Below are positions 2,365-6,766 of a DNA stretch of 17,878 nt, in pieces. The position numbers and the translations under genes were made by a program. The notes beneath the pieces were generated by a model. The model did not search any database. It saw only the letters and a program-made list of their open reading frames with translations, and had not been told where the DNA came from. The stretch lies in assembly GCA_001790855.1 (NCBI GenBank), contig MGDH01000023.1:17750-35627 (forward strand), given 5' to 3'. The DNA is from Candidatus Schekmanbacteria bacterium RIFCSPLOWO2_02_FULL_38_14. Its GTDB lineage: Bacteria; Schekmanbacteria; GWA2-38-11. The stretch's first letter is position 1; each line of letters opens with the position of its first letter.

Positions 2365-2401
2365 AAAAAAGGGGAAAAGGATTAAACCTCTTCCCTTTTT
2401 T
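2365..2401. terminator. Bidirectional terminator downstream of the secreted-protein gene
   Basis: The arms 2365-2380 (AAAAAAGGGGAAAAGG) and 2387-2401 (CCTCTTCCCTTTTTT) pair around ATTAAA with two mismatches or bulges. Read on the minus strand it lies about 30 bp after the stop of the 2433-3047 gene and ends in TTTTTT. It also works on the plus strand, so it can end transcription from both sides. Confidence 0.65.
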
Positions 2402-2432: not shown

Positions 2433-3047
2433 TTAATTTTGTGGAGAATATTTACCAAAACCAGAAGAATAGGGACTTACATACATAATCCCATGGCTGC
2501 CTTCTCCTGTGTCCTGTAAAACTTGCTGTACAATAGCAAATTCTTCAAAAATAACTTCTCCGATTTCTGTACCATCTGCACTATACCATACACCACCTGC
2601 TTTAGTAGCATTCGCTGGAGCAGCAACAATTTTTACAAAATATTCCCATTTCTGTTTTTTACCTTGGGTATCAATATAGGTTTCCTTCTGATGGTTTGTC
2701 AACCATGCTCCTGAACCTATATAGGAGGCATAACCGTAGTGTCTATCAAGTTTTCCATCGCCATTACAATCCTGATTGCTAAGCCATGTATCGTTCCATT
2801 TCATAGTAAGTTCAATGTTCTTGTAAGGCTCGCACCAGAGTGCTGAATTGTCAAAAGCATCGCAGTATTCACCGTTGAAAATACGAGCTTGGTAATTATA
2901 TCCCTTTACATTGAAGCCTGTTTGGATGACACTACCATCGCTTGCTAAGAGTGTTCCGCTCTGAATCGCAGTACACTCAGCAAATGCCATGCTCGCAAGA
3001 GGTATTGATGCGAGTATAAGTAAAAAAAATTGTAATATCTTTTTCAT
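2433..3047 (-). CDS. Secreted protein of unknown function with a calcium-loop-like motif
   Basis: A start 18 bases upstream (TTG) is possible, but ATG at 3047 has GGAG (3053-3056) 5 bases before it and begins a clean signal peptide, MKKILQFFLLILASIPLASM then AFA before the predicted cleavage at E24. The mature part (about 181 residues) has four cysteines (25, 62, 72, 94), many aromatics, the acidic loop DCNGDGKLD (93-101), which resembles an EF-hand or dockerin-type Ca2+ loop, and conserved-looking GSGAWLTNHQ, YFVKIVAAP and GGVWYSADGTEIG segments. I have an impression of similar uncharacterised secreted proteins in environmental genomes but know no function. It stands alone, with its own terminator and, unusually, a sigma-54-type promoter upstream. 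No lipobox, PEP-CTERM or membrane anchor is visible. Disulfide-stabilised export is inferred. Confidence 0.82.
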   Translation of the reverse strand: MKKILQFFLLILASIPLASMAFAECTAIQSGTLLASDGSVIQTGFNVKGYNYQARIFNGEYCDAFDNSALWCEPYKNIELTMKWNDTWLSNQDCNGDGKLDRHYGYASYIGSGAWLTNHQKETYIDTQGKKQKWEYFVKIVAAPANATKAGGVWYSADGTEIGEVIFEEFAIVQQVLQDTGEGSHGIMYVSPYSSGFGKYSPQN

Positions 3048-3071
3048 TTTTTCTCCTTTCAGCAATTTTAT

Positions 3072-3097
3072 GTTTCAACATCTTGAAACTGTTTCAA
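3072..3097. promoter_or_regulatory. Triple alternating half-site GTTTCAA/TTGAAAC/GTTTCAA
   Basis: GTTTCAA (3072-3078), TTGAAAC (3083-3089) and GTTTCAA (3091-3097) form two overlapping perfect palindromes, with spacers of 4 and 1 bases. They sit between the predicted sigma-54 start site and the ribosome site of the secreted-protein gene. Possible roles are a repressor operator or an RNA hairpin near the ribosome site. Confidence 0.45.
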
Positions 3098-3131
3098 TTT
3101 AGACCTTCAAAAATGCTTTCGTTTTATTATT

Positions 3132-3148
3132 ATGCAATAATTATGCCA
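3132..3148 (-). promoter_or_regulatory. Sigma-54 (RpoN) -24/-12 promoter for the secreted protein gene
   Basis: On the minus strand the sequence reads TGGCAT-AATTA-TTGCAT (-24 at 3148-3143, -12 at 3137-3132). The invariant GG and GC are exactly 10 bases apart, as the sigma-54 consensus TGGCAY-N5-TTGCW requires. The predicted start near 3122 leaves a leader of about 75 bases before ATG 3047. Orientation, spacing and location all fit. Confidence 0.65.
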
Positions 3149-3255
3149 GAAAACCTCTTTTTAAAAATAATTATGTAATTACTTGATTTATAAAGGAATA
3201 TTTTTCTAAAAGAGGAAACTGTTTTAAAAAAATCTATATATTAATTTTTAAAAAC

Positions 3256-3272
3256 TGTCCAAAAATTCGACA
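3256..3272. promoter_or_regulatory. Candidate activator site 1 (TGTC-N9-GACA)
   Basis: TGTCCAAAAATTCGACA is a near-palindrome bounded by TGTC and GACA, about 140 bp upstream of the predicted sigma-54 start. That is the distance range used by enhancer-binding activators. Its flanks AAAAAC and CTTTTT are shared with site 2. Confidence 0.4.
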
Positions 3273-3373
3273 CTTTTTTGGTATTTTTTTTAATATTTTT
3301 AAATATTAACAAGAAATATTATTTATTATCAATAAATTAACCTATAATTTTTTTATATTTTTCTTCAAAAAAC

Positions 3374-3390
3374 TGTTCAAGTTTCAGACA
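3374..3390. promoter_or_regulatory. Candidate activator site 2 (TGTT-N9-GACA)
   Basis: TGTTCAAGTTTCAGACA repeats the pattern of site 1 in the same orientation 118 bp further upstream, with the same flanks. Paired distal sites are usual for oligomerising sigma-54 activators; which activator binds is unknown. Confidence 0.35.
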
Positions 3391-3424
3391 CTTTTTCAAA
3401 ATCCCCCTCACCCTCCTCTCTTCG

Positions 3425-3517: not shown

Positions 3518-3540
3518 AATCCTAATTAAAAATTTAGAAA

Positions 3541-3628
3541 TCTCTGTAATCTTTTTCAAATCTCTGTAATCAAGTCACTAAATTTTCTTGACAATATAGT
3601 TTGTGGTGGTAGCTTTAAAAACATAAAA
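3541..3628 (+). repeat. Direct repeat, copy B (with TTGACA box)
   Basis: About 90% identical by position-by-position reading to 1831-1918. TTGACA lies at 3589-3594, followed by TAGCTT at -10 distance, a weak match. It lies upstream of the DUF5661 gene. Confidence 0.75.
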
Positions 3629-3654
3629 TTATATAATTTTTTAAAGACCGACTT

Positions 3655-3726: not shown

Positions 3727-3753
3727 ACATGTTGGGGCAAGGAGGGTATGCGG

Positions 3754-4200
3754 ATGAAAATTCAGGAATACATCTCAAAGGAGGAGGTCAAACGCGTCTG
3801 TCGGGAACTGGGCCTCCAAGACTGGTCTGTTCTAAAGGAACCAGGCATTCCCACTGAGGAAGCGGAAGCGGTTCTTAGCGCGCTTGATGTTCCTACGATG
3901 AAGATAGACTCTTCTATCTTCAAAGCGGGGCTTGAAATAGAGTTGGAGCATGGTACCCGCTATCCCGAGGCCAATGTCACGAACAACCACCCCCTCATCA
4001 CGGGTCGAATCGTCGTGGCTCATCTTAAGGAGTCGATGGACTACTACCTTAGACTTGCTGTTGCGGAGGCTGAGGGCGATTTGTTTTCCGCCATTCTTGC
4101 TGGAGACGGCAAACGAGCCGTTAGAAAGATCCACACCCTCTCAGAAGCTCGTGCCGAAGTAGCTCAGTCGGAGCAAACGCAGCTTAAAAACATGCCCTAA
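3754..4200 (+). CDS. DUF5661 family protein
   Basis: Two in-frame ATGs exist (3748, 3754). GGAGGG at 3741-3746 is one base from the first and 7 from the second, so 3754 (MKIQEYIS) is preferred, giving 148 residues. The centre reads FKAGLEIELEHGT (57-69), ANVTNNHPLITGRIVVAHL (73-91) and MDYYLRL (95-101). These match the conserved core I associate with DUF5661 (ELEHG, NVTNDDP, TGKIALAHL, DYYTRL). The function of that family is not established. The N-terminal 50 residues look like a separate small helical region. It has its own candidate promoter. Its last 60 bases overlap the convergent GT-C gene in antisense. GC content is higher than in the flanking repeat region. Confidence 0.8.
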   Translation: MKIQEYISKEEVKRVCRELGLQDWSVLKEPGIPTEEAEAVLSALDVPTMKIDSSIFKAGLEIELEHGTRYPEANVTNNHPLITGRIVVAHLKESMDYYLRLAVAEAEGDLFSAILAGDGKRAVRKIHTLSEARAEVAQSEQTQLKNMP

Positions 4201-5805
4201 CCAACGCATTGAGCCTACTCGAAACCCGCTCCGAGTTTCCTCTACTCGTCTTGTACCAGTCGTCTTACGACGCATAATCGAGCAACCTTTCGTCTGTAAA
4301 ACTGTCACATAGTCCTCACGAAGAATAGCATCAAGCTCGGAAAACTCATCTGAACATCCTGCTCCGTGAGGGCGCCATGATTCAAACTTCAGCACAAGAC
4401 TCGGCTTGTCGTCTCTAAATTGCGAAATAAGTTCCTTTCGCAAATCCAATATGTATTGAGTGGAGGTATGGTGATAAAAATGAAAATCATATATGAACCG
4501 TCCATAGAGAGGACGACGGATTTTGTAGAGAGCATGAATTGCTCCCGAGGTCACATCAAGGGGCATGATGGTATCTGAGAGAGTCGCATTTTTTTGAAGA
4601 TACGAGGAAACGAGGCTTACGTGACCTTTTTTGACCTCATGCGTCTTTCCTTCTCTCCATATCAAGAACTCCTGGCCAAGGCTTGCGAAGGGTAGACTTG
4701 TCGCTATGGCCACACAAAGAATGGCCGCCCGCCAACGCGACTCGCTGTAATGATGCAAAAGGCCTCGACTGAGTGTCATCCCAGCACACAAAGATACGCA
4801 GTAGTAAAGTGGAAACTTGTGGTAAGGCCAGAATTTGCCACCGATAAAAACATAGAGAAGGGCGCAGAGTACAAGTGCAAACAGAATCGCATTTTGTGTG
4901 CGCAGGCGTCTATCTGTCATTCTGCTGCCCCATGATACACCCAGACATGCCACGATAGAGAAGGGGCAAAGCAGAAGGGGGATCATCTCTACTCTATACC
5001 GTTTCAAGAGCTGAACAACGCCGGCTGAACGGACCATTCCGCTACCGTCAATCTCGGCATACAGCGGGTAGTAGTGGCGTGCCATGTCAAGAAAGGCCGC
5101 AAGAGCATGATTGTAGGATAGCCACCCAGCAACCAGAAGTATAGGCAAGAGCATCCCAGAGAATACCAAGATAGCGGTCTTCAGCAGCCTCAACAGGAAG
5201 CGCCTTCGTTCTATGCTTGTGTCGCAACCGGTGAAACATGCGGCCTTGACCATGAGGGGAACCCAGCACAGTATCATGGGGGGCTTAATGGTCAGCACAA
5301 CCCCCGCGAGGATGCCGCAGAGGAACAGGGAATACCATCTCGGAGCATCGGAACTGTTCGTTCTGAACACCAGAGCGATGGACATGGCTAGTGGCAACAC
5401 GCATAGGTACTCGCGCTGGAGCGCGAGAATTGCACCTCCTGACAGATAGGCGGCTGCGAAACAGGCCGTAGCTAGAATCCCAGATTTCAACCCATGACGA
5501 CTCAGTGCCAAACACGTGAACACTCCAATAGCGACCAAGACGCTCAAGTCCAGGATCCTGCAAGCAAATGATGCGCCTGCAGTGATCTGATGAATGGCGC
5601 TGTACAGCAGCATCGTTCCTGGTGGATTAATATCGAAGAAGTCACGATATGGAACCAAACCCGCGTCATGAACCAGAAAGCCTTCGTAGAGCATGATCGG
5701 GAGATCATGAACGACTGGCCAGCGGAGACTCAGGACAAACAAAAGAAGGGCGAATGTTACTGCCATACATATAGCAACAGTCGAAAAGTGGGTTTTTTTC
5801 ATCAT
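4141..5805 (-). CDS. GT-C type integral membrane glycosyltransferase-like protein
   Basis: 554 residues from ATG 5805, chosen because it overlaps the methyltransferase stop as ATGA; an ATG 24 bases upstream is possible. A first membrane helix (VAICMAVTFALLLFVLSL) is followed by a loop with HDLPIMLYEGFLVHDAG and LVPYRDFFDINPPGTML. That Asp-rich loop with DINPPG resembles ArnT/PMT-like (GT39/GT83-type) transferases, which use polyprenyl-phosphate sugars outside the membrane. About nine more hydrophobic segments follow, then a soluble C-terminal region. The final ~30 residues (after CSIMRRK) are rich in Arg and run antisense into the DUF5661 gene; they look non-native, as though the original stop was lost. 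The sugar and acceptor are unknown. It forms a two-gene operon with the methyltransferase. Confidence 0.75.
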   Translation of the reverse strand: MMKKTHFSTVAICMAVTFALLLFVLSLRWPVVHDLPIMLYEGFLVHDAGLVPYRDFFDINPPGTMLLYSAIHQITAGASFACRILDLSVLVAIGVFTCLALSRHGLKSGILATACFAAAYLSGGAILALQREYLCVLPLAMSIALVFRTNSSDAPRWYSLFLCGILAGVVLTIKPPMILCWVPLMVKAACFTGCDTSIERRRFLLRLLKTAILVFSGMLLPILLVAGWLSYNHALAAFLDMARHYYPLYAEIDGSGMVRSAGVVQLLKRYRVEMIPLLLCPFSIVACLGVSWGSRMTDRRLRTQNAILFALVLCALLYVFIGGKFWPYHKFPLYYCVSLCAGMTLSRGLLHHYSESRWRAAILCVAIATSLPFASLGQEFLIWREGKTHEVKKGHVSLVSSYLQKNATLSDTIMPLDVTSGAIHALYKIRRPLYGRFIYDFHFYHHTSTQYILDLRKELISQFRDDKPSLVLKFESWRPHGAGCSDEFSELDAILREDYVTVLQTKGCSIMRRKTTGTRRVEETRSGFRVGSMRWLGHVFKLRLLRLSYFGTSF

Positions 5806-6470
5806 CTCATGCCCATACCTTTTCTGCATACATAGAGCACATGGGGATATGGAAGAATGTCTAGAAGGGCATGGATCTTAACATCAAATCCCACACTTTC
5901 AAGTAGGTTTTGCATGCTGACTGTATCAACATAGCAGGGAGGCTGCCGAGGATTCATGAGAATGTCGAGAATCCATGTAAAAGCCACTTTCCATCGCGGT
6001 AAAGCGGCGATGTCTTTGAGAATGAGGACCCCACCTGGGGCAAGATGCTGAAATATGATGTCTAGTAATGGCCTATGCCTTTCCTTCGGGAGGTGGTGGA
6101 TAAGGTCGAGCATGTACGCTGCATCACACGACACCGATTGAGCGATCAACGTTTCGGCTGTGCGATTCTCGAAGGAGACACGCGTAGACAGATTGAGCAC
6201 TTCGGATGTTGAACGTGCCGCGTCGATGCGGAGACGGTTGACATCTATGGAGACGAAACGTCGGCCAGGCGAAAGCAAGGCATAATACAGCGTGAAGAGC
6301 CCAAAGCCACACCCGATATCTAGAATACGACCATTAAGGGGAAGATACTGACCAATCTCCTCCAGTATTCGCATGTTCATGATCTGGAAACGCAGCGTGC
6401 AGTACGTTCTGATGACCCAACTGTTATATGCGCGGATGACCTGCGCTTTTATCGAATCGTGTTTTGTCAT
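5802..6470 (-). CDS. Class I SAM-dependent methyltransferase
   Basis: 222 residues with motif I ILDIGCGFG (49-57), the acidic end of strand 2 at D76 (SIDVN), an YMLDLIHHLP segment (119-128) and LAPGGVLILKD (143-153), typical of small-molecule or lipid methyltransferases of the Methyltransf_11/25 type. A hydrophobic stretch (162-172) may touch a membrane or a lipid substrate. An AAGGTGG ribosome-site-like sequence precedes the ATG, and a TACAAT -10-like box lies at 6519-6514, without a clear -35. The ATGA overlap with the following GT-C gene implies joint expression, so methylation of a polyprenyl-linked or glycan intermediate is a reasonable inference, not shown by the sequence. Confidence 0.8.
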   Translation of the reverse strand: MTKHDSIKAQVIRAYNSWVIRTYCTLRFQIMNMRILEEIGQYLPLNGRILDIGCGFGLFTLYYALLSPGRRFVSIDVNRLRIDAARSTSEVLNLSTRVSFENRTAETLIAQSVSCDAAYMLDLIHHLPKERHRPLLDIIFQHLAPGGVLILKDIAALPRWKVAFTWILDILMNPRQPPCYVDTVSMQNLLESVGFDVKIHALLDILPYPHVLYVCRKGMGMR

Positions 6471-6766
6471 GTGTGTCTGTCCACCTTGGTCAACTTGAAG
6501 GCTGAGCGATTCGATTGTACCTCATGCATCACGCACGTTTGGTGGCATCGAGGGCCCTGTTTGCCCACCGCCGCTTTGGGTTTTGCACTTGTTCGTCTGG
6601 GACCTGTCAACTCAAATACTCTTTAGTGTAAAGTGTTTGCGCCCCATGATCTACCCCAGATCACGACATGTTCGGGGGGCCTGCGGCAGATCCCGGTGCC
6701 AAGACTGTAAGCCGGATCTAACAGGTCCCGTCCGTCGAACATTAATTTTTATACTTATTATCACTA
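6471..6766. other. Gene-free spacer left of the IS remnant
   Basis: This is the upstream region of the methyltransferase gene. Apart from the TACAAT box (6514-6519), a minus-strand TTGACA (6603-6608) and the possible ugd fragment, I see no gene. The AT-rich sequence after about 6741 marks a composition breakpoint. Confidence 0.4.
6680..6742 (-). pseudogene. Possible UDP-glucose dehydrogenase C-terminal fragment
   Basis: The minus strand reads MFDGRDLLDPAYSLGTGICR from 6742. FDGRxLxDP...GxGxxRR resembles the last segment of UDP-glucose 6-dehydrogenases (FDGRNLYDP...YYGIGR). Nothing of the rest of the enzyme is present: sequence beyond 6742 turns abruptly AT-rich. It would be a rearrangement scar beside the methyltransferase/GT-C pair. 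The match is short, so this is tentative. Confidence 0.3.

Follow-up and report, generated by a model that had tools for sequence, protein, structure and literature searches.

A predicted PrsR-type sigma-54 regulon in Schekmanbacteria that includes a secreted-protein gene lacking a PEP-CTERM tail

The window analysed here (17,878 nucleotides of contig MGDH01000023.1, from Candidatus Schekmanbacteria bacterium RIFCSPLOWO2_02_FULL_38_14) carries a solitary gene for a secreted protein behind a putative sigma-54 promoter with two distant sites. A preliminary description, made from the sequence alone, noted that no activator gene is nearby, which holds for the window. Which activator would then act on this gene, and with which other genes would it be expressed? 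Our analysis suggests that the gene is very probably a single-gene member, outside the PEP-CTERM class, of the PrsK/PrsR-RpoN (PEP-CTERM box) regulon as it occurs in the Schekmanbacteria lineage.

The window gene, its control region and its product

The features of the locus, in window positions, are as follows.

2372..2395, minus strand: intrinsic terminator-like stem-loop, directly 3' of the gene
2433..3047, minus strand: secreted-protein gene, 204 aa, with a Sec-type signal peptide and a DCNGDGKLD calcium-loop-like motif, PEP-CTERM tail absent
3053..3058, minus strand: ribosome-binding site AAGGAG
3133..3148, minus strand: sigma-54 -24/-12 promoter TGGCATAATTATTGCA, GG-N10-GC, predicted transcription start near 3123
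3176..3188, minus strand: IHF-like site AATCAAGTAATTA (exact WATCAANNNNTTR), 40 bp upstream of the -24 element
3256..3272, minus strand: proximal activator box TGTCGAATTTTTGGACA, exact TGTC-N9-GACA, predicted PrsR box
3327..3339, plus strand: IHF-like site TATCAATAAATTA (exact WATCAANNNNTTR, opposite strand), between the two boxes
3374..3390, minus strand: distal activator box TGTCTGAAACTTGAACA, TGTC-N9-AACA, predicted PrsR box

The ATG at 3047 is preceded by AGGAG at 3057-3053 on the minus strand, and the stem-loop at 2395-2372, right after the gene end at 2433, is consistent with a single-gene unit. The minus-strand TGGCAT-N5-TTGCAT element was confirmed at 3148-3133, 101 bp before the ATG, with the exact GG-N10-GC spacing reported for it (GG at 3147-3146 and GC at 3135-3134, exactly 10 bases between). 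The 17-bp boxes, spaced by 118, are located 124 and 242 bp upstream of the promoter, leaving a gap of 107 bp between the proximal box and the promoter. Both had been described as TGTC...GACA sites; this is exact for the proximal box, whereas the distal one is one base off (AACA for GACA). The flanks said to be common to both, AAAG...GTTT, are present.

Several other sequences were observed around the gene. The leader that separates the promoter from the ATG contains a perfect palindrome, TTGAAAC-A-GTTTCAA (3083-3097, minus strand), with GATGTTGAAACA after it; a repressor operator is one possible role. The gene and its control region are flanked by a 114-nt direct repeat (84%; 1823-1936 and 3533-3646), with further short repeats on both sides (1708/3655 and 1743/3506; inverted, 1685/3424). 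The AT-rich gene region is bracketed by GC-richer blocks (positions 1-1600 and 3750-6500, ~50-60%) encoding a GH130-like protein, DUF5661 and a methyltransferase, which suggests acquired islands.

The protein begins with a signal peptide, MKKILQFFLLILASIPLASMAFA, recognised by inspection, and ends with SPYSSGFGKYSPQN; the TIGR02595 model of the PEP-CTERM tail (PEP motif, transmembrane segment, basic tail) gave no match to it. Searches against Pfam, NCBIfam and PDB sequences gave no match either, and a protein-only scan of genome contigs found no relatives. An alignment-based scan, however, identified 68 loci in Brocadiaceae, Deltaproteobacteria, Patescibacteria, Bacteroidetes, Chloroflexi, archaea and others, so the label of orphan does not apply to it in family terms. 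Conserved in the family are C25, GYNYQA, MKWND.WLSN.DC.GDG.LDRH and GSGAWLTNH, and by our reading DCNGDGKLD resembles EF-hand or dockerin calcium loops. The AlphaFold2 model is confident (pLDDT 89.5) and strand-rich, and neither Foldseek nor VIA-align 2 matched it clearly to a solved structure (best E 0.47; best Z 4.5). Thus, we draw no function from the model; the missing match is no evidence of a new fold.

The control module across the genome

The promoter pattern TGGCAYN5TTGCW has 38 matches in the 2.68-Mb genome, compared to 2 when the pattern is reversed. Judged by their sequences, the genes downstream of these promoters include classical sigma-54 targets, namely those for glutamine synthetase, an ammonium transporter and a pilin-like protein. 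The genome does encode rpoN (202.9 bits), the gene whose absence had been named as a point against sigma-54 control.

The short site TGTC-N9-GACA had been proposed as a genome-wide marker of the regulon. By itself it failed: GTGTC-N9-GACA has 8 matches, compared to 22 for the reversed control, and just the longer, flanked form is informative. A relaxed box with one mismatch was also rejected, being at the control level (77 vs 78), so that only pairs of boxes or the full module discriminate. The longer box recurs upstream of seven of the 38 promoters, and the box search added three, bringing to ten the places in the genome with a full module, that is, two TGTYGG-W5-TGRACA boxes plus the -24/-12 element (contigs C21, C22, C23, which is the window, C24, C25, C26, C28 twice, C29 and C37). 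The consensus of the 20 boxes is AAA-TGTCGG-(A/T-rich)-TGAACA-NTTT. The gap between proximal box and promoter ranges from 83 to 140 nt across the modules, and helical phasing is seen for the proximal boxes (best period 11.1 bp; simulated p 0.0005, or 0.009 with repeated distances dropped). The phasing of the inter-box spacing is weak (p 0.03, or 0.30 with repeated distances dropped) and was given no weight. Leaders 3' of the promoter, compared across modules, have no common sequence (best z 2.9), and the palindrome at 3083-3097 is absent from the leaders of the other modules.

Could the window module be a chance resemblance in an AT-rich intergenic region? The lack of enrichment of TGTC-N9-GACA alone would fit this, but the counts refute it and leave it a negligible probability. 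Scored with a weight matrix that left the window out and used the other nine modules, its boxes obtain 20.9 and 31.9 bits, and of the 111,712 positions scanned, window included, only these two reach 20.9 (next best, 20.4 and 12.5). Moreover, the promoter count is 38 against 2, and the strict triple pattern occurs in one order, with no control matches.

The modules precede mostly genes for proteins with signal peptides. PEP-CTERM genes are found behind those on C21, C24 (two in tandem), C25 and C28, with tails of the VPEPST, VPEPAT or VPEPGT type, then a hydrophobic stretch and basic residues. Six PEP-CTERM tails are encoded in the genome; five belong to full-length genes, all behind these four modules, and the sixth lies in a degraded-looking frame. 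Thus, every full-length PEP-CTERM gene of the genome is behind a module, and membership of the window gene in the known biofilm-type surface-protein regulon of PrsK/PrsR is the most likely reading. With ten modules of the same design, and five PEP-CTERM genes among their targets, the earlier guess of a genome-wide regulon for surface or extracellular proteins holds. The sixth tail sits in a 44-aa open frame immediately 3' of prsR (L066, G000:C9:82660-82728), apparently what is left of a disrupted PEP-CTERM gene.

Tail-less genes behind modules are the window gene, one on C29 for an SdrC-like, Asp-rich secreted protein, and one on C22 for an 85-aa protein without signal peptide; the second C28 gene runs off the contig end, its C-terminal tail not being in the sequence. 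At C37 a 52-aa open frame (MSNKEKIKTEEKKAIGIPKKKAFVEPKLKVYEPLIDITLFTSTANVGGGTFF), 70 bp after the promoter (L045), precedes a gene for a 1042-aa protein, and at C26 (L076) a very short open frame of ~21 aa (MKSNKKSYQKPLLPAPYPSVR) precedes one for a secreted 501-aa protein; both short frames resemble precursors of modified peptides. The C22 protein (L051:3398-3655) and its 97-aa ortholog in a sister genus (G001:C86, L083) have no signal peptide and no family match. This small gene keeps a related module in the two genera (z 6.9 between boxes), and its product may assist the PrsR system from the cytoplasm. The secreted SdrC/SdrD-like repeat family is also behind a two-box module in two genera (C29, L077:3854-4321; G002:C4, L096). 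Its proteins end in an Asp run or CCP, and a similar protein on C26 (L035) has a sigma-54 promoter without boxes.

The two IHF-like sites of the window also recur. In the inter-box spacer, WATCAANNNNTTR with at most one mismatch is present in 20 of 24 modules, some of which are interrelated and so not fully independent (shuffles gave 5.6, with a maximum of 13 in 200), and exact copies in 7 modules against 0.26 expected, most of them with 32 bp between their start and that of the distal box. This inter-box pattern was noticed before testing; the region between proximal box and promoter had not been inspected for it beforehand, and it contains 8 exact copies, compared to 0.55 expected. In most modules an IHF-like site lies 29-43 bp before the -24 element. 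Note that sigma-54 promoters without boxes, such as those of glutamine synthetase and the ammonium transporter (L038, L039, L031, L047 and others), also have IHF-like sites, ~38-42 bp upstream of -24; hence, a site at this distance may be a general feature of the genome.

PrsR as the probable activator

The genome encodes the following proteins in one 9-kb stretch of contig C9.

C9:83154-84494: PrsR, 570 bits (curated cut-off 502.6)
C9: PrsK, 426.6 bits (cut-off 300)
C9: PrsT, 565 bits (cut-off 312.2)
C9: EpsI, 62 bits (cut-off 42.8)
C9: exosortase, the only one in the genome, 169 bits (TIGR02602 cut-off 105.55)

In Proteobacteria, the PrsK/PrsR/PrsT/exosortase set has been tied to a sigma-54 box preceding PEP-CTERM genes (Haft 2006, PMC1569441). 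RpoN dependence was shown for the PEP-CTERM gene pepA of Aquincola (PMC9850573), and D. vulgaris DVUA0057, a predicted regulator of PEP-CTERM genes, binds PEP-CTERM promoters directly by DAP-chip (PMC3333781). Since rpoN and the PrsK/PrsR/PrsT/exosortase/EpsI set are present in the genome, the activator that seemed to be missing is most likely PrsR, encoded elsewhere, in the exosortase locus. The fact that rpoN, the promoter and the boxes are all found supports the proposal of an enhancer-controlled sigma-54 gene, to which PrsR would bind and whose transcription would depend on RpoN.

Another possibility could be that this is a true sigma-54 enhancer module read by a different NtrC-type regulator, for example the AtoC-like one beside prsT. 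About a dozen other NtrC-like regulators are encoded in the genome, at least 11 of them scoring 390-425 bits against the PrsR model, and TGT...ACA half-sites are common to several regulator groups in D. vulgaris (PMC4641369). These scores are, however, below the cut-off; PrsR is the sole regulator of the genome above it, the module occurs only in the order's four PrsR-bearing genomes, and the boxes mark PEP-CTERM genes, which are known PrsR targets in other bacteria. We consider this alternative unlikely.

With PrsR as the activator, the control would proceed as follows. PrsK, a membrane kinase, would sense a signal and phosphorylate PrsR, dimers of which would bind both 17-bp TGT-N11-ACA boxes. 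An IHF-like protein may bend the DNA between the boxes and again ~40 bp before the promoter, and the AAA+ ring of PrsR would then open the promoter held by the RpoN-RNA polymerase. Under PrsR-RpoN control the secreted protein would be made together with the exosortase substrates and would probably join the same extracellular matrix, although the exosortase itself would not sort it.

Conservation, origin and meaning of the control region

All 4 genomes of the order carry the strict pattern of two boxes plus -24/-12, against none of 56 others, and the reversed control gave 0 matches. PrsR exceeds its cut-off in the same four genomes and in one other, G030, in which the strict two-box pattern was not found. 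Two-box modules also stand before PEP-CTERM genes and other genes for secreted proteins in G001, G002 and G003, which belong to the same family or order, G001 being from a sister genus of the same family. The only close ortholog of the window gene, in G001, is on a contig that ends before the promoter region, and homologs in other phyla gave one -24/-12-like match in 67 other loci, without boxes. Thus, PrsR control appears as a trait of the lineage, not of the protein family. The preliminary description had named lack of conservation of the promoter and sites in relatives with the protein as a refutation, and this is partly the case, namely outside the lineage; the design of the module itself is kept throughout the order. 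Other points that speak against PrsR control of the window gene are the absent PEP-CTERM tail, the proximal gap beyond the proteobacterial range, the other NtrC-type regulators of the genome, the truncated G001 locus and the combination in G030 of PrsR with no strict pattern.

The window control region is related to that of the C28 PEP-CTERM gene. Box spacing and proximal distance are 118 and 124 in the window, compared to 118 and 123 at C28, and the two regions align (70% over 273 bp, E 4.7e-28). The box-free spacers are also related, both between window and C28 (z 3.6 and 8.4) and between the window and a gene for a secreted protein in G001 (z 6.5 and 6.7), the median over all pairs being near 0. 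The control region therefore behaves like a cassette common to different coding regions. This kinship, and the other-phylum relatives without the promoter, would also be expected if the region were a relic duplicated from a PEP-CTERM gene, with the real transcription coming from a sigma-70 promoter and PrsR control being unimportant. However, the boxes, both IHF-like sites, the -24/-12 element and their spacing are intact while the spacers have diverged to ~70%, and sigma-70-like matches in the control region are at the shuffled level (6 vs 6.1). A relic is thus very improbable.

How does the PrsR-controlled module compare with known systems? It shares with the PEP-CTERM box regulon (PMC1569441, PMC9850573) the -24/-12 promoter, a 17-nt box of the TGT-N11-ACA type, a long intergenic region and single-gene units, as well as PrsR, PrsK, PrsT, the exosortase and boxes before PEP-CTERM genes (5/5 full-length). 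In the work of Haft 2006 (PMC1569441), however, the box was seen only in Proteobacteria, was sometimes repeated, ended in TTTACA and lay at a mean of 62.8 nt from the promoter (range 32-92); here it is outside Proteobacteria, two boxes are the rule, the end is TGRACA, and the ~107-nt gap, 83-140 across modules, is taken as a variant, the proteobacterial range being a description and no defining trait. The IHF-like sites at fixed places and the tail-less secreted cargo also set the present system apart. Since the same study mentions a few boxes before non-PEP-CTERM genes, this cargo represents an extension, not a break. The DVUA0057 regulon of D. vulgaris (PMC3333781, PMC4641369), from a different phylum, is likened to it by regulator type and targets: a PrsR-type regulator binds there to PEP-CTERM promoters and some others. 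IHF-assisted sigma-54 promoters (D. vulgaris orp, PMC3897727; review, PMC7057263) likewise have a bend-site consensus between activator site and promoter, but the present modules differ in having another IHF-like site in the inter-box spacer, mostly 32 bp from the distal-box start. We found no report in the literature of a PrsR-type regulon in the candidate phylum Schekmanbacteria. The kind of system is known; its occurrence in this lineage is new, as are the longer-spaced two-box arrangement, the fixed placement of IHF-like sites and the secreted cargo outside the PEP-CTERM class.

More tentatively, and with somewhat less than even confidence, we propose that PrsR control regions in Schekmanbacteria combine, in this order, box, IHF-like site, box, IHF-like site and -24/-12, and that such a composite is duplicated whole, like a cassette, and has captured secreted proteins that are not exosortase substrates, including the widespread, unnamed calcium-loop-like family. 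The regulon would then be a general extracellular-matrix programme instead of a PEP-CTERM one.

With its probable membership in the PrsR regulon, the seemingly isolated window gene gains an activator, and a surface-protein regulon already known elsewhere is extended to a candidate phylum. The sequence definition of the regulon (two boxes, two IHF-like sites and -24/-12) can find further members, including tail-less secreted proteins that tail-based searches miss. Finally, an unnamed secreted family of many bacterial phyla and archaea would be tied, in one lineage, to extracellular-matrix expression, a first clue to its role.
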